A stretch of DNA of 64,000 nt from Mesorhizobium loti R88b (GTDB taxonomy: Bacteria; Pseudomonadota; Alphaproteobacteria; Rhizobiales; Rhizobiaceae): the NCBI RefSeq assembly GCF_013170845.1, contig NZ_CP033367.1, forward strand, positions 744,001 to 808,000. Reading direction: 5' to 3'. The position numbers and the translations under genes were made by a program. The notes beneath the pieces are model-generated. The model was not told the origin of the DNA. It saw only the letters and a list, made by a program, of their open reading frames with translations, and ran no database searches. Positions 1,550 to 55,482 of the stretch are shown here, one piece after another. Positions within the stretch are counted from its first letter, which is position 1, and each line of letters starts with the position of its first letter.

Positions 1550-2674
1550 ATGGAAGCTGCCGGCGGCCGGACCCATGCCCGATTGCCCGTGACGCTCGTC
1601 ACGGGCTTTCTTGGGAGCGGCAAGACGACGATGATCAATGCCGCCCTGAAGGCCCCAGAATTGCGCAATACCGTCGTGGTGGTCAACGAGTTCGGCGAGG
1701 TGGGCCTTGACCATTTGCTCGTCGCCAATTCGAACGACGCGGTCATTGTCCTCGAAAACGGTTGTCTCTGCTGCACCGTGCGCAGCGACCTCGTCTCCAC
1801 CCTCAACGAACTCTACCAATCCCGCATTGCGGGGCGCATCTCCGCTTTCGACAACGTTGTCATCGAGACCTCGGGCCTGGCAGAGCCGGGTCCCGTGCTG
1901 CAGGCCTTCCTGTCCGAGCCGACGCTCGACGGCCTCTACCGCGTTGCAAGCGTTGTCACGCTCGTGGACGCGGTCAATTGGGAAGAAACGAGCCGGAACC
2001 ATGATGAGGCGGCCCGGCAGGTCGCCCTCGCAGACCAGATCCGGATCACCAAGCTCGATCTCGCCGAGCCAGGCACCGAGGAGCGCCTCGCGAGCGAACT
2101 CGCACGCCTTAACCCGGCGGCCGACATCAGGCCAATAGTCTCCGCGACGGCAGACATTGCCGCCCTGCTGACAACGAAGGGTTTCGACGCGGCCGACCCG
2201 AGCGACGACCCCCGGCCATGGTTATCACTGTCTCGCTACCAGGCGACCGCAATTGAAGAGCACGTCTGCGACGACCATTGCGCGCACCACCATCACAGCA
2301 CCAATCATCTCGCCGGCAAGGAGATCGAATCCTTTGTTCTGCTCCGGGACGAGCCGGTCTCGCGCGCCGAATTGCAGTTCCTGCTGGACGGCATTTCGCA
2401 GAATCTCGGCCCAGGTCTGTTGCGCGTGAAAGGCCTCGTCAACGTTGCCGGGGAGCCGGGCCGTCCGGCGGTCATCCAGGGCGCTCAGCACCTGCTTCAC
2501 ACAATGACGTGGCTCGACTGCTGGCCCGACGAGGATGAGCGCACGCGCGTTGTGTTCATCACGCACGGCATTCCCCACGACAGTCTTCGCGACGTCATCG
2601 AACTGCTCGACCGCATGAGCGCGCGGACCTTCAAGGCACGCGAGAAGGCAAAGGCCTCGCGGCAGGAGCCCTGA
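1550..2674 (+). CDS. CobW/COG0523-family GTPase, putative metal chaperone
   Basis: A 374-residue P-loop GTPase of the G3E/COG0523 family, whose members deliver metals (Zn, Co, Fe) to client enzymes using GTP. The Walker A motif is GFLGSGKTT near residues 18-26. The diagnostic metal-binding CxCC motif is in NGCLCC near residues 70-75. The switch/Walker B region reads IETSGLAEPGP. A His-rich stretch (HVCDDHCAHHHH, about 236-248) links the GTPase domain to the C-terminal CobW_C domain, as in zinc-responsive members. It starts at ATG 1550, 24 bp after the M24-family gene, so the two are probably co-transcribed. The client metal and protein are not shown by the sequence. It ends 3 bp from the stop of the convergent regulator gene. 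Confidence 0.88.
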   Translation: MEAAGGRTHARLPVTLVTGFLGSGKTTMINAALKAPELRNTVVVVNEFGEVGLDHLLVANSNDAVIVLENGCLCCTVRSDLVSTLNELYQSRIAGRISAFDNVVIETSGLAEPGPVLQAFLSEPTLDGLYRVASVVTLVDAVNWEETSRNHDEAARQVALADQIRITKLDLAEPGTEERLASELARLNPAADIRPIVSATADIAALLTTKGFDAADPSDDPRPWLSLSRYQATAIEEHVCDDHCAHHHHSTNHLAGKEIESFVLLRDEPVSRAELQFLLDGISQNLGPGLLRVKGLVNVAGEPGRPAVIQGAQHLLHTMTWLDCWPDEDERTRVVFITHGIPHDSLRDVIELLDRMSARTFKAREKAKASRQEP

Positions 2675-2677
2675 TCA

Positions 2678-4381
2678 TCAGTAATAACCGGCCTCGCGCA
2701 TGACCTTGTCGATGCGGTTCTGCGAGCGCTCCAGCGCCTCCTGGTCGGTAATGTCTCCGGTCAGGGCCGCGTAGATCTCGGTGCCGAGGATTTCCTCGAC
2801 CTGGTGGTATTCGGGGATGGGCGGACGCTGCCAGTTCTGCAGCTTGTTTTTCTTCGCCAGGCGGTCGACGAAGCGCACGATCGGCGTCGAGGCGGCGGCC
2901 TCCGGATCCGCGCTGACCGAGAAGCGTGGCGCCACCGGAAAGCCGTTCTTGACATATTCCTTCATCGCCGACGGCGAGGCCATCCAGGAAATTGCCTCGA
3001 ATGCGAGCTTGGCGCGCTCTGGCGGCAGCGACTGCGGGATGATCAGCACGAATCCGCCGATCGGGCTGACGCTTGTCCCGCCCGGCCCATGGGGATGGGC
3101 AAGATAATCGACCTTGCGCTTCACCACCGAGCGAATGTCGTATTCGAAGCGCGCCGCGCGCATGGTCCACGTGTAAGCCATGGCGGAATGGCCCGTCATG
3201 AAATATTCGAGCCCCCTGTTCCAGTCGATGTCGAGGATGTCGGGTGGCGAGATCGACAGCAGCCGGTGCATGAAATCAAGTGTCTTGCGGCCGGCATCGC
3301 TGTCGAGGCGGGGCCGCATCTGGTCTCCTGAGAGGCGGGAGTAATCCAGGTACAGCCGCGCCGTCGGCAGGTTGATCACGGCGCTGCCGCAACAGGCCAT
3401 GAAGAACATGAAGGAATGGGCGATGGGCATGCCGCGAGCGGCGTTCCACACCACGCCGTACAGGCCGCGGTGCGGCTGGTGCAATTGCTTGCCGACTTCG
3501 ATGACACGGTCGAAGCTTGTTGGGGGTTGCAGCTTGTAGGCTTCCAGCAGGTCCCTGCGGATGGCGAGTGTCTCTACCGTGCAATAGATCGGAACGCCGT
3601 ACTGAATCTTGTCCCATGACCCGGTCGCCCAGATATTGGGGTGGAAGTCGAGGGGATTAATCCCGCTTTTCTCGAGGAACTCGTTCAGGGGCTGGCAAAC
3701 ATTCCGCTTCACCGCCTCGCCGAGCCAGGGCATGTTGACGGCGATGACGTCGTACTTGCTGTGCTTTCTGCGGGCGTTCTCGAACACTTCCTCCTGGAGC
3801 TGGGGTAGCGGCAGAAGCGTGAAGTTCTTCCGCGAGGAAAGTTTTGCGCGGAAGTCCGACCACATGTCGCGCATCGAGGCGAAGTAGTTGTCGTCGTGAA
3901 GCAGAAATTTCAGATCTTGCCCGGTGTCCTGGCTGCTTGCCATGATCTCGAGGGGCGGAATGATCTGACCAGCCAGATAGGAGCCGCCGAAGTAGTAGTC
4001 CTCCTCGTCGCCGTTTCCGGACTTCAGCCCGAAGGTCTCGGCCAGTAGGGCTTTGACCTTGCGCGCATATTCGGTGAAGTTCTCGATCATCCGACGACTG
4101 GGAACGACATAGAACGTCTTTGAATCCGGCCCCTTTTCCTGCTTCTCCACCTCGCCGAGCTCGATGAGCCGGTGGATGCGCCGCATGGCGCTCGCGAAGG
4201 GAACCTCGGCCGACTGGGCTAGCGACGACATGCTCACCGTCTGACCCCGAAGGTAGCTCCGCATGAGGAAGATCACCATATTCCAGTTCTGGTCCGGTTC
4301 AGCGATCGGGAGGAGCTGATCATAGGGTTTGCGCATCCGCTCAAGGAAGCTGATGATCCGCAACAGTTCGTACTCGGTCAT
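2678..4381 (-). CDS. Winged-helix / type-1 solute-binding protein fusion, putative one-component transcriptional regulator
   Basis: A 567-residue protein with no signal peptide or lipobox at the N terminus. Residues about 1-100 look like a helical winged-helix DNA-binding region: MSSLAQSAEVPFASAMRRIHRLIELGEVEK has the spacing of a MarR/ROK-like helix-turn-helix, followed by a basic wing (KTFYVVPSRR). Residues about 130-560 match the fold of extracellular type-1 (MalE-like) solute-binding proteins: conserved AVNMPWLGEAVKR, YGVPIYCTVETLAIRRDLLEAY, and MAYTWTMRAARF with AISWMASPSAMKEYVKNG. The lack of an export signal suggests a cytoplasmic sugar-responsive regulator rather than a transport component. 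It adjoins the 6.5-16.2 kb sugar-type uptake operon, a plausible target, but that link is inference. Automated pipelines would probably name it an extracellular solute-binding protein. Confidence 0.75.
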   Translation of the reverse strand: MTEYELLRIISFLERMRKPYDQLLPIAEPDQNWNMVIFLMRSYLRGQTVSMSSLAQSAEVPFASAMRRIHRLIELGEVEKQEKGPDSKTFYVVPSRRMIENFTEYARKVKALLAETFGLKSGNGDEEDYYFGGSYLAGQIIPPLEIMASSQDTGQDLKFLLHDDNYFASMRDMWSDFRAKLSSRKNFTLLPLPQLQEEVFENARRKHSKYDVIAVNMPWLGEAVKRNVCQPLNEFLEKSGINPLDFHPNIWATGSWDKIQYGVPIYCTVETLAIRRDLLEAYKLQPPTSFDRVIEVGKQLHQPHRGLYGVVWNAARGMPIAHSFMFFMACCGSAVINLPTARLYLDYSRLSGDQMRPRLDSDAGRKTLDFMHRLLSISPPDILDIDWNRGLEYFMTGHSAMAYTWTMRAARFEYDIRSVVKRKVDYLAHPHGPGGTSVSPIGGFVLIIPQSLPPERAKLAFEAISWMASPSAMKEYVKNGFPVAPRFSVSADPEAAASTPIVRFVDRLAKKNKLQNWQRPPIPEYHQVEEILGTEIYAALTGDITDQEALERSQNRIDKVMREAGYY

Positions 4382-4973: not shown

Positions 4974-5843
4974 ATGGCGACGAGCGCATTCCGAGCGGTG
5001 GGATGGATTGGCCTCGGGAAAATGGGCCTGCCGATCTGCCGGCGACTGAATGCGGCCGGTATCCAGGTAACCGTGCTGGCGCGAAATGAGGCGAGCGCCG
5101 CCAAGGCCGAGGCGCAACGATTTGCGATCTGCCGGGGCCTTGAAGCGCTTGCCGCCTCCGATGTCATCGTCTCGGCAGTTCCCGATGATGCGGCCCTGCT
5201 CGGTTTGATGACTGACGCCTTTCTCGCGGCACTCCGCCCCGCCCATGTCGTCGTCGATATTTCCACCGTGTCGCCGGCCGCCTCGGCCGAAGTCGCTCGC
5301 AAGCTGACGCCGACAGGGGCGAGATATCTCCGGGTGCCGGTTTCAGGTTCCACGGTGCATGCCGCCTCGGGCCAGCTGACCGCCATGGCGTCCGGCCCCC
5401 GGTCTGCCTTCGACGACATGCAGTCGATCCTGTCCGCTTTCTGTGCCAAGCAGTTCTATGTTGGTGCCGATGAGCAGGCGCGATATCTGAAGCTTGCCAT
5501 CAATTCCATCCTGGCCGCCAACTCTGCCCTCCTGGCGGAGGCGCTGGCAATCGGCGAAGCGGGCGGACTGCGCCGATCCGACATGCTCGAGGTCATGACG
5601 CAGAGCGCAATCGCCACGCCACTGCTGGGCTACAAGAAGGACGCCCTCAACAAAGGCGAATATCCGACGGCGTTTTCGGTAAGCCAGATGGTGAAGGACC
5701 TCGATCTGGTGCTCGGTGCTGCCCGCGCCGATCATATACCCGTCCCGCTCAATGCAATCGTCAGGCAACGCTTTGAGCAGGCCTACGCAGACGGGCTTGG
5801 GGAAAAGGACTTTTTCTGTCTTTCCGGGGCGTCAAAGAGCTAA
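4974..5843 (+). CDS. NAD(P)-dependent beta-hydroxyacid dehydrogenase (3-hydroxyisobutyrate dehydrogenase family)
   Basis: 289 residues. The N-terminal Rossmann motif is GWIGLGKMGLPICRRL, the GxGxMG signature of the beta-hydroxyacid dehydrogenase family. VVVDISTVSPAASAEVA is the conserved DxSTxxP substrate loop. RVPVSGSTVHAASGQLTAMASG is the family's second motif. LKLAINSILAANSALLAEAL contains the catalytic Lys in the position normally written KxxNN. The family oxidises 3-hydroxyisobutyrate, tartronate semialdehyde, 6-phosphogluconate-like and related acids; substrate is not decided here. I chose ATG 4974 because GGAGG at 4961-4965 is eight bases upstream; an in-frame GTG at 4965 overlaps that site. 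It lies divergent from the ABM gene and next to the sugar-type operon. Confidence 0.85.
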   Translation: MATSAFRAVGWIGLGKMGLPICRRLNAAGIQVTVLARNEASAAKAEAQRFAICRGLEALAASDVIVSAVPDDAALLGLMTDAFLAALRPAHVVVDISTVSPAASAEVARKLTPTGARYLRVPVSGSTVHAASGQLTAMASGPRSAFDDMQSILSAFCAKQFYVGADEQARYLKLAINSILAANSALLAEALAIGEAGGLRRSDMLEVMTQSAIATPLLGYKKDALNKGEYPTAFSVSQMVKDLDLVLGAARADHIPVPLNAIVRQRFEQAYADGLGEKDFFCLSGASKS

Positions 5844-49512: not shown

Positions 49513-51111
49513 TCATTTTTGAACGATGTCCTCGAAGCTGAGGTCGAACCGCATGAGATATTTGCGCAGCCGGTCGGCGTCGTTGCCGCTGGTTTTTTGC
49601 AGCCGCGAGACCGCGAACAGTTTCCGCCCGGCGGCGCTGACCGAATTGCTGTCGCGGCAAACCGCGAGCACCGTGGCCAGTTGCGACCGATCGAAGATGT
49701 CGATCTGGTTTCGCCGCTCGGGACCGAGAACCTCCGACAGGATGGCCTCCCGGTCGTCGGCATCACCGGCCCGCCAGAGCGTGGCCAGACGGTCGATCTC
49801 GTCGCGCACCGTCTCCTCGTTGATGCGGCCAAGCGGCGCCAGCGTCGCCATGCGCGTCACCGAAGCCGACAGATCGCGGAAATTGGCCCGCCACATCGCC
49901 TCCGGCACAATCGAGAATTTCAAATAGAGGTCGCGCGCTTCCTTGTTGAAGGTGACGTTCTGCCCCTCGCGCTCGCTGAAGCGTCGCAGTTCGAAGTCGA
50001 GGTTCGGCTCGATGTCTTCCTTGCGGTCGCGCAGCGCCGGCAGCTGGAAGGTCCACAGGTTCAGTCGTGCGAAGAGATCCTCGCGGAACTTGCCTTCCTT
50101 GACGCCGATCGACAGATCGCGATTGGTGCCGGCCAGAAGCTGGAAGTCCGACATCACATCCTGATCGGCGCCGACCGGCAGGAAGCGTTTTTCCTCGATG
50201 GCCCTGAGGCACATGGCCTGTTCGTCGAGGCCGAGTTCGCCGATCTCGTCGAGGAACAGCACGCCCTTGTTGGCCGATTTCATCAGCCCGGCGCGCTCGT
50301 TCTCGGCGCCGGTGAAGGCGCCCTTGACGTGGCCGAACAGGGTCGACATCGCCTGATCGCCGCGCAGCGTCGCGCAATTGACCTCGATGAAAGCGCCGGA
50401 AACCTGCCGCTGCGCCTTCTTGAGCTCGTAGATACGCCTGGCCAGCTGCGACTTGCCGGCGCCCGTCGGCCCGGTCAGCAGCACCGGCGCCCGCGAGCGG
50501 ATCGTCACCTTCTCGATCTGGTCGATCATCTGGTTGAAGGCCGGATTGCGGGTGGCGATGCCCGATTTCAGGAACGACGTCGCTTCGTCGCGCTCGGCGG
50601 TAAAGCGCGTGGCGATCGCATCGTAGCGCGACAGATCGAGATCGATGATCGAATGGCTGCCGGAAACATCCTCGTCTGCGCCCTGCTTGCGGGGCGAAAG
50701 CTGCAGCAGGCGCGCCGGGATGAAGCGGGCCTCGGTGAGCAGGAACCAGCATATCTGGGCGACATGGGTGCCGGTGGTGATGTTGACGAGGTAGTCCTCC
50801 TTCTCGGGATCGAATTGATAGGCGCGGGCGAAATCGCGCAGGCCGGTGTAAACTTCGCTGAAATCCCAGGGATCGCGCATGCTGATCAGATGGGGCCTGA
50901 CCTCCGTGGCAGGCGAGACCTGCTCGATGTCGGCAATGATCTGCGTGGCCAGCTGCCGCGACTGAGTCCCATGGATGAGTTCGAGGCGATCGATGAAAAG
51001 CCCCGGCTGCTGGCACAGCGCAACCGTTGGCCGCCATTTTCGCCAGCGGTCATCCGTGCGGCCCGCGTCAAGCGTCGTTCCCAGGATGCCAATGGCGACG
51101 CGTCTTCTCAT
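49513..51111 (-). CDS. rtcR: RtcR, sigma-54-dependent activator of RNA-repair genes
   Basis: 532 residues. The first ~180 residues are the RtcR N-terminal CARF-like sensory domain (MRRRVAIGILGTTLDAG; EDYLVNITTGTHVAQICWFLL), thought to sense RNA fragments. A AAA+ domain follows at about 185-425: Walker A LLTGPTGAGKSQL, the sigma-54-contact loop KGAFTGAENERAG (intact GAFTGA) and Walker B VLFLDEIGELG. A Fis-type helix-turn-helix is expected near 470-515 (ATVLAVCRDSNSVSAAGRKLF). It is divergent from the TROVE/Y-RNA/rtcB operon, whose promoter carries a sigma-54 element, so that operon is almost certainly its target. In the absence of RNA damage the sensory domain should keep the ATPase off. Confidence 0.93.
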   Translation of the reverse strand: MRRRVAIGILGTTLDAGRTDDRWRKWRPTVALCQQPGLFIDRLELIHGTQSRQLATQIIADIEQVSPATEVRPHLISMRDPWDFSEVYTGLRDFARAYQFDPEKEDYLVNITTGTHVAQICWFLLTEARFIPARLLQLSPRKQGADEDVSGSHSIIDLDLSRYDAIATRFTAERDEATSFLKSGIATRNPAFNQMIDQIEKVTIRSRAPVLLTGPTGAGKSQLARRIYELKKAQRQVSGAFIEVNCATLRGDQAMSTLFGHVKGAFTGAENERAGLMKSANKGVLFLDEIGELGLDEQAMCLRAIEEKRFLPVGADQDVMSDFQLLAGTNRDLSIGVKEGKFREDLFARLNLWTFQLPALRDRKEDIEPNLDFELRRFSEREGQNVTFNKEARDLYLKFSIVPEAMWRANFRDLSASVTRMATLAPLGRINEETVRDEIDRLATLWRAGDADDREAILSEVLGPERRNQIDIFDRSQLATVLAVCRDSNSVSAAGRKLFAVSRLQKTSGNDADRLRKYLMRFDLSFEDIVQK

Positions 51112-51270: not shown

Positions 51271-51286
51271 TGGCACGCCGCCTGCA
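51271..51286 (+). promoter_or_regulatory. Sigma-54 promoter of the Ro/Y-RNA/rtcB operon
   Basis: TGGCACGCCGCCTGCA matches the sigma-54 consensus TGGCACG-N4-TTGCA with one mismatch, keeping the invariant GG at -24 and GC at -12 with correct spacing. It lies 33 bp before the TROVE gene start and downstream of the divergent rtcR gene, as in known RtcR-controlled RNA-repair operons. Transcription should start near 51298. Confidence 0.85.
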
Positions 51287-51318
51287 GTGATGCTGGTGTG
51301 AAATGAAGGATGAAAACA

Positions 51319-52878
51319 ATGGCGAACAAATCCGTGTTTGCGACGATTGCAGGAAAGCTGCTCCCGCTGGCTGCCGCCAAGAACCATGAAGGTGCCCGGG
51401 CTTACCGCCTGACACCCCATCAGGCCTTGGCGCAGCTGGCGGCGACGGGAACGTTCAACGCGACTTTCTATGCCGAGCCGCGTGAGCAGTTCGACGAGGT
51501 GTTGAAGCTCGCCTGGCAGGTGGAGCCGGAATTCCTGGCACGCACCGCCGTCCACGCTTTTGAGCAAGGCTACATGAAGGACATGCCGGCATTGTTGCTT
51601 GCCATCCTGTCTTGCATGCAGGGCGACGAATTCAACCGTGCATTCGGGCGCATTGTCCGAAACGGAAAGATGCTGCGCAACTTCGTGCAGGTGATGCGGT
51701 CTGGAGCCACCGGGCGCAAGTCGCTTGGATCGCGGCCCAAGCGTCTGGTTCAGGCCTGGCTTGAGCAGGCGGCCGACTTCGAGATCATGCGGGCAGCGGT
51801 CGGGAACGATCCGTCGCTGGCCGATGTCATCAAGATGGTTCACCCGAAGCCGAAATCGGCATCGCGTGAGGCGCTTTATGGCTACCTCTTGGGCAAACCG
51901 CATGACATCGCGGCCTTGCCGAACGTGGTCAAGGCTTTCGAGGCGTTCAAGCGCGATCCGTCGCTGCCTGTGCCTGATGTGCCGTTTCAGATGCTGACCT
52001 CGATGCCGCTTTCGCGTGAGCATTGGGTGCAGATAGCGGAGACGGCCGGATGGCAGATGCTGCGGCAGAACCTCAACACTTTCGCCCGCAACGGCGTGTT
52101 CGAAGTGGAAGGGTTCGCGGAAAAGCTGGCGGCGCGACTGCGCGACCCCCAGGAGATCCGGCGCGCCCGGGTGTTCCCGTATCAGCTCATGGTGGCGTTC
52201 ACCATGGCCGGTGCGGAGGTGCCCGGCGAGGTCAGGGACGCGCTGCAGGATGCGATGGAAATCGCGCTCGGCAACGTGCCCCGGATCAAAGGCAATGTGG
52301 TCGTGTGCCCTGACGTTTCAGGGTCCATGAGCTCGCCGGCGACCGGGTACCGCAAGGGTTCGACTTCGGCCGTGCGTTGCATCGACGTGGCTGCCCTGGT
52401 GGCCGCCGCGATGCTGCGGCGCAACCCGACGGCGAAGGTGCTGCCGTTCGAGAACGATGTGGTGGATATCCGCCTCAACGCTCGCGATACGGTGATGACC
52501 AATGCCGCCAAGCTGGCTGCCATCGGTGGTGGCGGAACCAACTGTTCGGCTCCGCTGGCACGGCTGGTGCGTGAGAAGGCCGATGTCGACCTTGTGGTGT
52601 TCGTGTCGGACAACCAGTCCTGGGTGGATGCATCGGCGCATGCGCATCAGGGGACGGCGACGATGCAGGAATGGCGCAAGCTGAAGGCGTTGAACCCCAA
52701 GGCCAAGCTGGTCTGCATCGACATCCAGCCCTACACAACAACGCAGGCCGAGCCTGAGGTCGACATCCTGAATGTCGGAGGGTTCTCCGACCGCGTCTTT
52801 GACGTGATCGGGACAATGCTGTCCTCGAATGCCGACCCGGACCACTGGGTGCGCACGATCGAGGCGGTCGAACTCTGA
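51319..52878 (+). CDS. rsr: TROVE-domain Ro60-like RNA-binding protein (Rsr)
   Basis: 519 residues. Residues about 15-320 form the HEAT-like TROVE ring that binds Y RNAs and misfolded RNAs (KLAWQVEPEFLARTAVHAFEQGYMKDMPALLLA; FNRAFGRIVRNGKMLRNFVQVMRSGATGRKSLG; KALYGYLLG-type helices). A C-terminal von Willebrand A domain follows, with a MIDAS metal motif starting at Asp332 (PDVSGSMSS), then GGGGTNCSAPL and VFVSDNQSWVD. I start it at ATG 51319, eight bases after AAGGA; ATG 51310 would overlap that site. The product should act with the Y RNAs encoded just downstream in RNA quality control or repair. Confidence 0.93.
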   Translation: MANKSVFATIAGKLLPLAAAKNHEGARAYRLTPHQALAQLAATGTFNATFYAEPREQFDEVLKLAWQVEPEFLARTAVHAFEQGYMKDMPALLLAILSCMQGDEFNRAFGRIVRNGKMLRNFVQVMRSGATGRKSLGSRPKRLVQAWLEQAADFEIMRAAVGNDPSLADVIKMVHPKPKSASREALYGYLLGKPHDIAALPNVVKAFEAFKRDPSLPVPDVPFQMLTSMPLSREHWVQIAETAGWQMLRQNLNTFARNGVFEVEGFAEKLAARLRDPQEIRRARVFPYQLMVAFTMAGAEVPGEVRDALQDAMEIALGNVPRIKGNVVVCPDVSGSMSSPATGYRKGSTSAVRCIDVAALVAAAMLRRNPTAKVLPFENDVVDIRLNARDTVMTNAAKLAAIGGGGTNCSAPLARLVREKADVDLVVFVSDNQSWVDASAHAHQGTATMQEWRKLKALNPKAKLVCIDIQPYTTTQAEPEVDILNVGGFSDRVFDVIGTMLSSNADPDHWVRTIEAVEL

Positions 52879-52926
52879 GCAATTCCAGGAAAAGTGTTAA
52901 GCGGTTTTCCGTCCGGAATTGCGTCA
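52879..52926. repeat. Rhizobial mosaic-type palindromic intergenic repeat
   Basis: AATTCCAGGAAAAGTG... and ...GGTTTTCCGTCCGGAATT form an inverted repeat (AATTCC/GGAATT outer, GGAAAA/TTTTCC inner). The sequence matches, from memory, a very common short intergenic repeat of Mesorhizobium and related genomes. It lies between the TROVE gene and the first Y-RNA unit and may influence mRNA stability. Confidence 0.55.
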
Positions 52927-52932
52927 AATAAA

Positions 52933-52963
52933 GTGGTCCCGGCGGCGCGTCCGCCGGGACCAC
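52933..52963 (+). terminator. Strong 13-bp hairpin between TROVE gene and Y-RNA array
   Basis: GTGGTCCCGGCGG (52933-52945) and CCGCCGGGACCAC (52951-52963) are perfectly complementary with a 5-nt loop. No U-run follows, so it is not a standard intrinsic terminator. It could attenuate transcription, stabilise the mRNA 3' end, or mark a processing point that separates the mRNA from the Y RNAs. Confidence 0.55.
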
Positions 52964-52976
52964 CGGAACAAAAACA

Positions 52977-53112
52977 GGGCATGACGAATGCCGATGGAAC
53001 TACAGGCTGTTACCCTCCAGGTCGCGGGTTCGAATCCCGTCGGGTCCGCCACTATGGACCCGTAGCTCAGCGGATAGAGCAGGACGTTTCGTCAAACCTT
53101 GTCGTCATGCCC
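52977..53112 (+). ncRNA. Y RNA (YrlA-like) unit 1, permuted tRNA mimic
   Basis: The ends GGGCATGACGA (52977-52987) and TCGTCATGCCC (53102-53112) pair perfectly over 11 bp and carry the Ro-binding-type motifs GACGAATGCC and CTTGTCGTC. Inside, the order is T arm (GCGGGTTCGAATCCCGT, 53024-53040), acceptor 3' strand CGGGTCC + GCCA (53041-53051), a CTAT linker, acceptor 5' strand GGACCCG (53056-53062) and D arm GCTCAGCGGATAGAGC (53065-53080). This is a circularly permuted tRNA lacking an anticodon arm, which is the known design of bacterial YrlA RNAs. The tRNA-like halves resemble an arginine tRNA. It is 136 nt and lies downstream of its presumed partner gene rsr. Confidence 0.88.
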
Positions 53113-53163
53113 GACGACTTTTACGCGGCTTCGGTCGTTAGAAAATGAAAGGAACTGAACACA

Positions 53164-53298
53164 AGGCGTGACGAATGCCTGTGGAACTACATCCAACTTT
53201 CGGGTCGCGGGTTCGATTCCTGCCGGAGCTGCCAATCGGCTCCGTAGCTCAGTCGGTAGAGCAGAAAGGCAGTTTCACAACAGACTTGTCGTCACCCT
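53164..53298 (+). ncRNA. Y RNA (YrlA-like) unit 2, permuted tRNA mimic
   Basis: The 5' AGGCGTGACGAATGCC and 3' CTTGTCGTCACCCT pair (GTGACGA with TCGTCAC plus AGG with CCT, one bulged C). The tRNA-like core is permuted: T arm GCGGGTTCGATTCCTGC, acceptor 3' CGGAGCT + GCCA (53224-53234), linker ATC, acceptor 5' GGCTCCG (53238-53244), D arm GCTCAGTCGGTAGAGC (53247-53262) with the canonical GG of tRNA D loops. GTGGAACTACA after the first motif is shared with other units. 135 nt. Confidence 0.87.
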
Positions 53299-53306
53299 CA
53301 ACAGAC

Positions 53307-53440
53307 AGCCGCGGCGAATGCCCGATGGAACTACAGCTCCAAATGAAGGGATGCTCCGTGAGGTCGACTCCTCACCTTGCTGGCGCTCTTTGGCACGAGC
53401 GGGACTCCCGATGTTTCATCATCTTTTTGTCGCCGCGGCT
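53307..53440 (+). ncRNA. Y RNA-like unit 3, divergent internal module
   Basis: The ends AGCCGCGGCGA (53307-53317) and TCGCCGCGGCT (53430-53440) pair perfectly over 11 bp and include GGCGAATGCC and TTTGTCGCC, with GATGGAACTACAG following the first. The interior has a 6-bp hairpin GTGAGG-TCGACT-CCTCAC (53358-53375) resembling a T arm, and weaker GCTC/GAGC pairing, but no clear acceptor or D arm. It is therefore the least tRNA-like member of the array. 134 nt. Confidence 0.75.
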
Positions 53441-53451
53441 AACGACTCAAG

Positions 53452-53506
53452 CATGACCCGGAAAAATGGAATCCGGTTTTCAAACGGTTTCCGTTTGTCC
53501 AGAGGT
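53452..53506. repeat. Second mosaic-type intergenic repeat fragment within the Y-RNA array
   Basis: ATGACCCGGAAAA...GGAATCCGGTTTTCAAACGGTTTCC resembles the common Mesorhizobium intergenic repeat that, from memory, has the form CATGACCCCGAAAAGTGG... with CCGGTTTTCGG. It separates unit 3 from unit 4 and is likely an insertion of a small mobile palindromic element. Confidence 0.45.
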
Positions 53507-53512
53507 AATGCA

Positions 53513-53648
53513 CGGGAATGGCGAATGCAGGCAGGACTACAGGTAGCGCGCCCGTCGAAAAGACGGGAGGTCGGGTGTTCAAATCACTCTCTCGCTCTGC
53601 GGAGCGGGGTGGCGCAGTCACCGTCTTGCCGATCCTTGTCGCCAGCCG
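53513..53648 (+). ncRNA. Y RNA (YrlA-like) unit 4
   Basis: Pairing ends TGGCGA (53519-53524) and TCGCCA (53639-53644), with the conserved GGCGAATGC, GGACTACAG and CTTGTCGCC. The core has a variable-arm-like hairpin CCCGTC-GAAAA-GACGGG, T arm GGGTGTTCAAATCACTC, an acceptor-like stem CTCGCTC-TGCG-GAGCGGG with a 4-nt loop, and a D-arm-like GGTGGCGCAGTCACC. The 5' half is nearly identical to unit 6, indicating duplication. About 136 nt. Confidence 0.83.
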
Positions 53649-53654
53649 ATCGAA

Positions 53655-53752
53655 CAGGGCGAATGCCTGCGGGAATACATTGGGATCTGGCGGTTCGACT
53701 CCGCCCGTCGGTCGGTTGACCGATCGGTTTCTCGCATCGACTTGTTGCCCGC
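53655..53752 (+). ncRNA. Y RNA (YrlA-like) unit 5, short
   Basis: Ends GGGCGA (53657-53662) and TTGCCC (53745-53750) pair, with one position changed from C-G to a U-G wobble compared with other units; motifs GGCGAATGCC and CTTGTTGCC are conserved, and GGAATACA follows the first. The core has T arm GGCGGTTCGACTCCGCC and an acceptor-like stem GTCGGTC-GGTT-GACCGAT. It lacks the variable-arm hairpin, making it the shortest unit at about 98 nt. Confidence 0.8.
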
Positions 53753-53765
53753 TAGAGAGAAAGAA

Positions 53766-53904
53766 TGAATGGCGAATGCAGGCAGGACTACAGGGATAGA
53801 GCGTCCGCGACGAAAGTCGCGGAAGGTCGGGTGTTCAAGCCATCCCTTCCGTCTCCGGATGGAAAGTAGCTCAGTAATTGTCTTGCCGACCCTTGTCGCC
53901 AGAC
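53766..53904 (+). ncRNA. Y RNA (YrlA-like) unit 6
   Basis: Ends TGGCGA (53770-53775) and TCGCCA (53896-53901) pair. Conserved GGCGAATGC, AGGCAGGACTACAG and CCTTGTCGCC. The core shows a variable-arm-like hairpin TCCGCGAC-GAAA-GTCGCGGA, T arm GGGTGTTCAAGCCATCC, an acceptor-like stem TTCCGTC-TCC-GGATGGAA and a D-arm-like GTAGCTCAGT. It is a paralogue of unit 4. About 139 nt. Confidence 0.83.
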
Positions 53905-53908
53905 CGAA

Positions 53909-54048
53909 TAGAAGGACGAATGCCTGCGAGACTACAGGTAGACGCAGCCCGCTTTTGCGGGTGCCGAAAGGCGTGAGGGTTCGTGTCCCTCCTTCGCATC
54001 TTCGCGAAGTGGCGGAAAAGATGTCTCGCATTCTCTTGTCGTCCGTCC
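53909..54048 (+). ncRNA. Y RNA (YrlA-like) unit 7
   Basis: Ends GGACGA (53913-53918) and TCGTCC (54039-54044) pair. Motifs GACGAATGCC, GAGACTACAG and CTTGTCGTC are present. The core has a hairpin GCCCGC-TTTT-GCGGGT, T arm GAGGGTTCGTGTCCCTC (53975-53991), an acceptor-like stem CTTCGC-ATCTTC-GCGAAG (53992-54009) and a D-arm-like TGGCGGAAAAGATGTC. It lies about 30 bp before the rtcB start and must share its transcript unless processed. About 140 nt. Confidence 0.83.
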
Positions 54049-54078: not shown

Positions 54079-55482
54079 ATGACCGAGATTTTGAGTGGAC
54101 AGGATTTGATCGACGCCGGCATGCCGCAGGGCAAGTGGTTCGGCAAGGCGCTCGCGGCCGCCAATGCGGTGCTGGAGAGCGGCGGATCGCCAAGCGATGC
54201 GCTGGAGGCCGCGCGTGCGTTCGCGCCCGCGCCGGCCATACCGTTGCATGCGCCCGGCTCCATGCCGTTGCATATCAACATCAAGGCCGAGACGCCTGAC
54301 GAGGCGGCCAATGTCGAGGCGGTCACCCGCAGCATGGTCGAGCTGATGCGCACGCCGGTGATCCGTGCCGGCGCCATCATGCCGGATGCCTGCCCGACCG
54401 GCCCGTCGGGTACGATTCCGGTTGGCGGTGTCGCGGTGTCCGAGGGTATCCACCCCGGCATGCATTCGGCCGACATCTGCTGCTCGATGGCGATCTCGGT
54501 CTTCCCTGGCGTGGCGCCGGCAGCACTGCTCGATGCCGTGCATGGGGTCACCCATTTCGGACCGGGCGGGCGTCCGCGCGGCCAGCAGATCCGGCCGGGC
54601 AAGGAGGTCTTCGAGCGTTTCGAGGCCAATCCCTTGCTGCGCGACCTGACCAGTGCCGCGATCGAGCATTTCGGCACGCAGGGCGACGGCAACCATTTCG
54701 CCTATGTCGGCACGCTGAAGTCGAGCGGCGAAACGGCGCTGGTCACGCACCATGGCTCGCGCTCGCCGGGCGCGCGGCTCTATACCAAGGGCATGAAGAT
54801 CGCCGAGGGCGTCCGCAAGACGCTGTCGCCGGAAACCTTGCCGCAGAACGCCTGGATTCCCGCCGACACGCGGGAAGGCGATGACTATTGGGAGGCCCTG
54901 CAGACGATCCGCGAATGGACCAAGGGCAACCATATGCTCATCCATGATCTCGCGGCCGAAAAGCTGTCGGCGAAGGTGTCGGACCGGTTCTGGAACGAGC
55001 ACAACTTCGTCTTCCGCCGGTCGGACGGGCTGTTCTACCACGGCAAGGGCGCCACGCCGGCCTTCGACAACTGGGCTGATGACGCGACCGATCTGACGCT
55101 GATCCCGCTCAACATGGCGGAGCCGGTGCTGATCGTGCGCGGCAAGAATGCCGAAAGCGGGCTTGGCTTCTCGCCGCATGGTGCCGGGCGCAATTTTTCG
55201 CGCACCCAGCACCGGCGCATGCAGGCGGGGCGCAGCGACGCCGATATCTTCGCGCAGGAGACGAAGGGTATCGATGCCCGCTTCTTCTCCGGCGTGACGG
55301 ATATTTCGGAGCTGCCGAGCGCCTACAAGAACGCGGCCTCGATGCGCCGCCAGATCGAACATTTCGGCCTGGCGGAGATCGTCGACGAAGTGCTGCCCTA
55401 TGGCTGCATCATGGCCGGCGACTGGGAAGCCAATGCGCCCTGGCGCAAGAAGCGGGAAGCGCGCCAGCAGCAGGGGCGTTGA
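54079..55482 (+). CDS. rtcB: RtcB-family RNA ligase
   Basis: 467 residues. Likely metal and guanylation residues: Asp132 and Cys135 in SADICCSM (canonical RtcB has DxGC, here DICC), Asn205-His206 in GDGNHFAYVG, His225 in THHGSRSPG, and His367 in SPHGAGRNFSR, the position that accepts GMP from GTP. RtcB joins RNA with 2',3'-cyclic phosphate ends to 5'-OH ends, repairing cleaved tRNAs and other RNAs. The sequence departs from classic RtcB at several motifs, so it belongs to a divergent RtcB subgroup. Start ATG 54079 has only a weak GAAAG ribosome site, suggesting low or coupled translation. No rtcA cyclase gene follows. Confidence 0.88.
   Translation: MTEILSGQDLIDAGMPQGKWFGKALAAANAVLESGGSPSDALEAARAFAPAPAIPLHAPGSMPLHINIKAETPDEAANVEAVTRSMVELMRTPVIRAGAIMPDACPTGPSGTIPVGGVAVSEGIHPGMHSADICCSMAISVFPGVAPAALLDAVHGVTHFGPGGRPRGQQIRPGKEVFERFEANPLLRDLTSAAIEHFGTQGDGNHFAYVGTLKSSGETALVTHHGSRSPGARLYTKGMKIAEGVRKTLSPETLPQNAWIPADTREGDDYWEALQTIREWTKGNHMLIHDLAAEKLSAKVSDRFWNEHNFVFRRSDGLFYHGKGATPAFDNWADDATDLTLIPLNMAEPVLIVRGKNAESGLGFSPHGAGRNFSRTQHRRMQAGRSDADIFAQETKGIDARFFSGVTDISELPSAYKNAASMRRQIEHFGLAEIVDEVLPYGCIMAGDWEANAPWRKKREARQQQGR

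Follow-up and report, generated by a model that had tools for sequence, protein, structure and literature searches.

The 64,000-nucleotide (nt) stretch of the Mesorhizobium loti R88b genome analysed here (the window) belongs to a 7.2-Mb genome on a single contig and contains a locus in which the genes rsr and rtcB, both on the + strand, are separated by 1.2 kb in which no protein gene is likely, with rtcR divergent. The Ro60 orthologue rsr (51310–52878) was identified by the Pfam family vWA_Ro60 (71.9 bits), its TROVE domain match of 22.6 bits being slightly under the Pfam cut-off of 23, and the nearest solved structure to its product was the D. radiodurans Rsr (2nvo; expectation value, E, 1.6e-22). 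rtcB (54079–55482; Pfam RtcB, 113.6 bits) likely starts at the ATG at 54079, because the longest frame, from GTG at 53983, would overlap the last RNA unit described below. rtcR (49513–51111, − strand) encodes a CARF-type sensor with a sigma-54 activator (Pfam RtcR, 272.5 bits, and Sigma54_activat, 168.1 bits). The interval between rsr and rtcB holds an array of seven Y-RNA-type units on the + strand (52981–54044), which share a terminal stem and carry differing heads built of tRNA-like parts; three of these heads are predicted to be nearly whole tRNA cloverleaves that are opened in the D loop and lack an anticodon loop.

With the borders used here, the units were 95–133 nt long, i.e. U1 (52981–53107), U2 (53168–53294), U3 (53311–53435), U4 (53518–53644), U5 (53656–53750), U6 (53769–53901) and U7 (53913–54044), all on the + strand. 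Their shared 5′ motif, CGAATGC-N6/7-RAMTACA, was matched seven times in the window and in none of 100 dinucleotide shuffles; genome-wide there were likewise seven matches, all in the array and all on the + strand, and the reversed pattern had none. Chance repetition of the motif is ruled out by these counts. The end of each unit, TTGTCG or close to it, pairs with the start of the same unit in seven out of seven cases, and this stem covaries in relatives. With the Rfam YrlA model (RF02553, E up to 10) six of the seven units were matched, U1 (72.0 bits) and U2 (72.8 bits) alone exceeding the cut-off of 69, followed by U5 (43.3), U6 (32.7), U4 (32.4) and U7 (28.8 bits), and U3 gave no match at that threshold. 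The linked rsr gene that goes with RF02553 lies directly upstream. Folding energies, compared with 200 dinucleotide shuffles per unit, had weak z-scores in U1 (−0.9; 40 shuffles as low in energy), U5 (−1.3; 16) and U2 (−1.6; 11) and clearer ones in U4 (−2.2; 8), U3 (−2.4; 3), U7 (−3.0; 2) and U6 (−3.5; none). As the energy is unremarkable in U1 and U5 and modest in U2 and U4, it is insufficient for the case when taken alone.

Several head types were distinguished. U1 and U2 were canonical YrlA RNAs. In U3 the T arm is followed directly by a D-arm-like hairpin, with no acceptor stem, and U5 consists of a T arm and an acceptor minihelix, with no D arm. U4 and U6 have a whole-tRNA head joined via the D loop, in which the anticodon arm is capped, in U6 by GAAA; they scored 126.8 and 142.4 bits, respectively, with a covariance model (R1) whose training included these two units. 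The head of U7 is of the class-II Leu type, likewise joined via the D loop, with a long variable arm and an anticodon arm capped by TTTT, and scored 156 bits with a model (R2) trained on U7. The preliminary description of this DNA had placed seven Y-RNA-type units of about 98–140 nt in the interval and had seen in them a set of Y RNAs; all seven were found there, slightly shorter than proposed, and the set does comprise differing heads. The T-, acceptor- and D-like arms that it gave in that order for every unit are valid for U1 and U2 and not for U3–U7. The YrlA architecture it assigned to all likewise holds for U1 and U2 and fails in U4, U6 and U7 by the D-loop junction and the anticodon arm, in U5 by the missing D arm and in U3 by the missing acceptor stem, and the check it proposed with the YrlA covariance model gave the divided outcome reported above.

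In the D-loop-joined fold the D stem is split between the two flanks of the head. In U4 its 3′ strand (GCGC, 53546–53549), before the anticodon arm, pairs with its 5′ strand (GCGC, 53612–53615), after the acceptor stem; the corresponding strands are GAGC (53799–53802) and GCTC (53869–53872) in U6, and CGC (53943–53945) and GCG (54012–54014) in U7, all on the + strand, the U7 strands being the same in 15 of 15 sequences.

Three alignments of relatives, whose loci are denoted by L numbers, were used to examine this fold. Alignment A2 comprised 31 sequences (23 of the U6 type and 8 of 20 U4 relatives, excluding the deleted U6 of L078 and a false match in L086). The proposed structure was paired in 93.2% of its cells, double changes occurred at 21 of 38 pairs against a shuffle mean of 13.9, with none of 500 shuffles as high, and pairing fell to 36–59% when the partner was slid by 1–3 columns. 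The split D stem was paired in 100% of cells. Alignment A3, i.e. 23 matches from 19 loci fitted to the model, shares six rows with A2 and contains one Leu-type row (L097, 6260–6393) that fits the model badly; 93.9% of its cells were paired, 32 of 38 pairs had double changes, and in the D stem, 98.9% paired, double changes were present at two pairs. Alignment A1 contained 15 U7 relatives (excluding the L080 copy, which has a repeat insertion, and with the row ends of L088 and L091 set by hand); 98.5% of cells were paired and 10 of 36 pairs had double changes. When the structure was not supplied, RNAalifold recovered the split D stem, and with it the anticodon arm, from both A1 and A2. A 7-nt anticodon loop was found in none of the 31 (A2), 15 (A1) and 23 (A3) sequences, the loops capping the anticodon arm being 3–5 nt long in A2 and 4, 5 or 12–17 nt in A1. 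The conserved pairing expected in the preliminary description was recovered as covariation in these alignments, and the split D stem and the capped anticodon arm are, as modelled structures, supported by covariation and by unguided consensus folding.

Insertions were noticed in some heads. The anticodon-arm loop of the L080 U7 holds a repeat of about 50 nt, apparently of the same kind as the palindromic repeats lying between units (52876–52931 and about 53447–53510 of the window, the former resembling a part of the Brucella small RNA CI408, E 0.018). Insertions were also present in the U1 acceptor loop of L058, L066 and L084, and the stems of the heads were unbroken.

The heads were further aligned to the tRNAs of the same genome (47 tRNA matches; 46 distinct sequences by ARAGORN), each tRNA being doubled to permit alignment of the unit cores in any circular permutation, and the scores were compared with 100 shuffles. 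U1 resembled tRNA-Arg(CCG) over the full circle, from position 27 to 26 (score 94, shuffle maximum 53), i.e. an Arg-like tRNA opened at 26/27 in which the Y stem replaces the anticodon stem, as described for YrlA, and which keeps GCCA behind the acceptor stem. The head of U2 was similar to tRNA-Arg/Asn (71.0, shuffle maximum 50.5) and keeps TGCCA. U6 was opened in the D loop, from 18 to 16 on Met and from 18 to 15 on Ala. U7 was opened there too, from 18 to 15 on both of its best Leu tRNAs, and in both units the Y stem enters at this opening, immediately ahead of G18-G19. U7 scored 64.5 with Leu(TAG), 62.5 with Leu(CAG) and 46.5 with Leu(CAA), against 45.5 for the best non-Leu tRNA, Ser(GGA), and a shuffle maximum of 55; the Leu-type D loop and the long variable arm of a class-II Leu mimic were both present. 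Among relatives (excluding units longer than 160 nt and those with the least resemblance to the M. loti units), the best tRNA was Arg for 20 of 26 U1 copies, and Leu for 12 and Ser for 2 of 14 U7 copies. Judged from these alignments, two ways of opening a tRNA are combined in one array, at 26/27 in U1 and in the D loop in U6, U7 and partly U4, and U4, U6 and U7 are predicted to represent nearly whole cloverleaves opened in the D loop.

Several observations weigh against this reading of the heads. In A2 a change of one split-D-stem pair from A-U to C-G was found in 8 of the 31 rows, all of them U4, and because the C-G pair is confined to the U4 rows it may be one event; in A3 three rows had the C-G pair, two of the U4 type and one of the Leu type, and the second change, from G-C to A-U, was in one clade (L107, L108 and L110). 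Counted as events, the double changes of the split D stem are few. In A1 the D stem of U7 was invariant, the further pair types, one of five measures, were reached by 75 of 500 shuffles, and position 58 in the T loop was not A in most copies. U4 aligned less cleanly with tRNAs (17 to 28 on Thr, 6 to 16 on Met), and an opening from 17–19 to 15–16 was obtained in only 5 of its 20 relatives, so that its D-loop reading rests on the alignment of units and on pairing. Neither U4 (best tRNA among relatives Thr in 8 and Met in 8 of 20) nor U6 (Met in 10 of 25) could be given a clear amino-acid identity, the best matches being mixed. U3 and U5 did not score above shuffles with the tRNAs of the genome, and 4 of 22 U3 and 13 of 22 U5 relatives beat all 20 shuffles; their tRNA likeness therefore rests on arm shape, and neither is supported as a copy of a definite tRNA. 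Finally, some distant arrays had heads without a recognisable T arm.

The consensus fold of the U5 type (A5, 20 of the listed short units) shows a T arm with an acceptor-like hairpin and lacks a D arm. In that of U3 (A4, 21 of 25 sequences) the T arm precedes a near-invariant hairpin, GCTC-TCTGGCAC-GAGC, with GG in the loop, and there is no acceptor stem. We read this hairpin as a D arm on the modelled structure; since it hardly varies, covariation cannot test this reading. The U3 motif was present in 26 of 62 loci. The T loop of the M. loti U3 has lost 1 nt by deletion; TTCGACT was kept at this place in 20 of the 21 A4 rows. A script sorted 254 units into 75 with an intact and 45 with a split D arm, 94 without a D arm, 34 without a T arm and 6 with the T arm alone. 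The script missed the M. loti U6 (a bulged A being the likely reason), counted the M. loti U3 as lacking a T arm and the L057 U5 as split, and as it is too crude, the claim of the split D arm rests on the alignments and covariance models and the script was used for the CCA count alone. By this crude count, CCA stood right behind the acceptor stem in 52 of the 75 D-intact units and in 4 of the 45 D-split ones; in the former it may be left over from two adjacent tRNA genes, or be a 3′ end that is used.

Ro60 was present in 21 of 146 genomes of the genus, 29 of 397 of the order, 7 of 385 of the class and 11 of 398 of the phylum, the samples overlapping. Arrays of this kind are not exceptional in length beside rsr, contrary to what the preliminary description had suggested: by the motif, the 21 genus loci hold seven units in four cases, six in ten, five in five, and four and three in one each, and the other Ro60 loci gave 1–7 R1 matches (E up to 0.01), apart from the distant L134, in which there was no R1 match at that threshold. 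Because arrays of 3–7 units are usual in the genus, the length of the array is not the novelty. At least one D-loop-joined unit was found in at least 48 of 62 distinct Ro60 loci (excluding L093, which is the same as L100, L123 and L125), i.e. in the 21 genus loci (U4 type or R1 above 60 bits), in 18 others with R1 above 60 bits and in nine others with the Leu pattern. This pattern, a regular expression with 29 matches, of which one inside rsr of L106 was false, placed a Leu-type (U7) head in 28 of the 62 loci, including Octadecabacter (L096), the order genomes L105, L116, L117, L120 and L122, one genome of the class (L126) and one outside it (L131). In Rhizobium etli CIAT 652 an array of five units was located on plasmid pA in a stretch without a listed gene. 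In 30 loci the Rfam YrlA model reached its cut-off 15 times and, with E allowed up to 0.1, gave about 69 matches, compared with 110 for R1 at E up to 0.01, including three off the array or on a tRNA; on the basis of 15 against 110 matches, most such units would escape Rfam-based annotation.

The heads without a T arm, seated on the usual stem, were located at 3762–3863 in L107, 3598–3699 in L108, 692–793 in L110, 3689–3782 in L102 and 793–882 in L112, and they constitute at least two further head types. In L135 (OR851267.1), an unverified contig of a Salmonella phage record that is apparently host DNA, a third Y-like unit (924–1037; R1 46.7 bits, E 6e-12; RF02553 31.7 bits, below the cut-off) follows YrlB and YrlA just before rtcB; two papers name, in the excerpts available, yrlB and yrlA alone as the Y RNAs of this operon, and a search of E. 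coli genomes with L135:700–1070 gave no match. Unpermuted tRNA matches were seen inside Y arrays of one genus (L117, 3523–3597 and 3607–3679; L116, 957–1031), that at L117 3523–3597 resembling, by eye, tRNA-Pro(TGG) with CCA. The Myxococcus phage Mx1 (L136) encodes a Ro60 (2501–4150) 47% identical to that of M. loti, with a weak Y-like match at 5640–5769 (E 3e-5); genes for tRNA-Gly and peptidyl-tRNA hydrolase lie close by.

Upstream of rsr, a sigma-54 promoter-like site (TGGCAC-N6-TGCA, 51271–51286, + strand) was identified as a sequence match, differing by one mismatch from what we take to be the consensus. Such a match is weak by itself (16 matches with up to two mismatches in the window, 11.9 expected); with a looser pattern, a site was found within 200 bases 5′ of rsr in 17 of the 62 loci. 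Between the rsr stop and U1 there is a perfect G+C-rich hairpin of 13 bp (52933–52963), and inverted repeats without mismatch, 8 bp or longer, occupied this place in 23 of 29 loci; as a guess, it might shield the rsr mRNA during excision of the array. Neither a sigma-70-like promoter nor a + strand terminator-like site was found between rsr and rtcB, which fits a single transcript. ARAGORN found no ordinary tRNA genes in the window. Overlapping open reading frames of 93–191 amino acids on both strands of the interval were set aside, because the conserved pattern is that of a paired RNA. Of an RtcR-controlled repair operon, RtcR, RtcB and the sigma-54 site (the last by its letters) were present; a search of the whole genome for RtcA (PF01137) gave no match, a point against the mechanism proposed below.

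The terminal stem CGAATGC/TTGTCG, the permuted tRNA-like head and the rsr–rtcB position are common to the array and YrlA (RF02553; Salmonella YrlA, PDB 6CU1). The head of YrlA is, in the excerpts available, described with D, T and acceptor arms, whereas in U4, U6 and U7 the opening lies in the D loop and an anticodon arm is present, U3 is without the acceptor stem and U5 without the D arm. The other Y RNA of the Salmonella operon, YrlB (RF02565), has the same end motifs but, according to the Rfam structure line, contains a single small inner hairpin and lacks a tRNA-like head, unlike the array units. With the Salmonella rsr-yrlBA-rtcBA operon the locus shares the divergent RtcR, the sigma-54 site, Ro60, Y RNAs and RtcB; it differs in the number of Y units, seven against the two described, and in the absence of rtcA genome-wide. 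As far as excerpts of the papers go, the YrlA stem binds Rsr and the head binds PNPase and is modified by DusA and TruB (PMC8394870), PNPase is bound by Rsr and YrlA, and the operon is under the control of sigma-54 and of RtcR, which in Salmonella responds to RNA with a 2′,3′-cyclic phosphate (PMC9879122). In ARTEMIS, again by an excerpt, the relation between Y RNA and tRNA is given as one circular permutation, derived from the single structure 6CU1 (PMC11472068). A literature search gave no description of such arrays or of D-loop-joined heads, a provisional result because the main Y-RNA papers were not covered, and the D-loop-joined head is provisionally the novel part.

With moderate confidence, the shared Ro60 stem and the varied heads of tRNA parts are taken as an adaptor kit that would bring Ro60, and PNPase or RtcB along with it, to damaged tRNAs and to partners that bind tRNA, as inferred from the published work on YrlA, Rsr, PNPase and RtcR and from the anatomy of the units. 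It is likewise plausible that Ro is adapted by the set to different targets or partners, as the preliminary description had put it. In this mechanism RtcR would likely activate the predicted sigma-54 promoter before rsr, and a single transcript through rsr, the array and rtcB would then be cut into separate Y RNAs. Each of these is predicted by homology to dock on Ro60 through the common stem. On the covariation, the heads would offer the tRNA elbow, i.e. the T arm and, where the D loop is present, G18G19, and the ends of a working tRNA would be blocked, the anticodon loop being capped or absent and the acceptor ends tied together. Different tRNA-binding proteins, holding different heads, may then set the action of the Ro60 particle. 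In the modelled structures all seven heads have the T arm in common and have lost the features needed for a working tRNA.

The main rival to the adaptor kit, and an unlikely one in our judgement, is that the heads are uncleavable tRNA decoys, which occupy tRNA-cutting nucleases and shield the real tRNAs while RtcB mends broken ones. According to an excerpt of Hughes et al. (PMC7790460), no YrlA fragments were seen upon tRNA cutting, and YrlA may competitively inhibit an anticodon nuclease; the Salmonella operon is, in the excerpt, predicted to respond to cut tRNA (PMC9879122), and U4, U6 and U7 regain an anticodon stem yet have no 7-nt loop. However, cap loops ranging over 3–17 nt in A1 and A2, and the repeat of about 50 nt in that loop of L080, do not fit a docking surface for anticodon nucleases, and U1, U2, U3 and U5 have no anticodon arm.

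An action in cis, in which the array would be a chain of structures in the rsr–rtcB mRNA that separates, stabilises or paces expression and yields no free Y RNAs, appears improbable. The tight spacing of the units, the hairpin ahead of them and the lack of internal promoter- and terminator-like sites agree with it, but the Salmonella YrlA is, in the excerpts of PMC8394870 and PMC9879122, a separate RNA bound with Rsr, and a spacer would need neither the Ro60-stem motif in every unit nor head types in similar order across genera.

There is very little to recommend the view that the units are permuted tRNA genes, whose cut ends RtcB would join to give working tRNAs somewhat as in algae. The circular permutation, the adjacent ligase and the CCA of the D-intact units are in its favour, and in the permuted genes of algae and one archaeon, as the excerpts describe them, the 3′ half likewise stands before the 5′ half, with the acceptor ends joined by an intervening stretch. 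Those genes yield working tRNAs, whereas the array units are built on a Y stem and have no anticodon, no aligned D-loop-joined unit has a 7-nt loop, and the D-intact units carry the Y stem where the anticodon arm belongs. Decaying tandem duplicates or tRNA debris, for which the T-loop deletion in the M. loti U3, the partial loss of U6 in L078 and the repeats inside some loops might be cited, are hardly credible in view of the covariation across genera and the recurring order of types.

The adaptor kit may, tentatively, be extended to bacterial Y RNAs at large, which could possibly form a toolkit in which various parts of a tRNA are mounted on one shared Ro60 handle, with an old Leu-type mimic and with each head recruiting its own tRNA enzyme. 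The parts would be a whole tRNA opened in the D loop and minus the anticodon loop, a tRNA minus the anticodon arm, an elbow without the acceptor and an acceptor minihelix, and the Leu-type mimic, often the last unit before rtcB, would be shared across classes of Pseudomonadota. If this toolkit reading is true, the Ro60–RtcB operon would be a programmable station of tRNA quality control. One operon would offer a natural domain-deletion series, in which the same Ro60 handle carries heads minus the anticodon arm, heads minus the acceptor stem, heads minus the D arm and heads with a whole cloverleaf, and a comparison of the partners of these heads would reveal which part of the tRNA shape matters for the function of the Y-RNA head.

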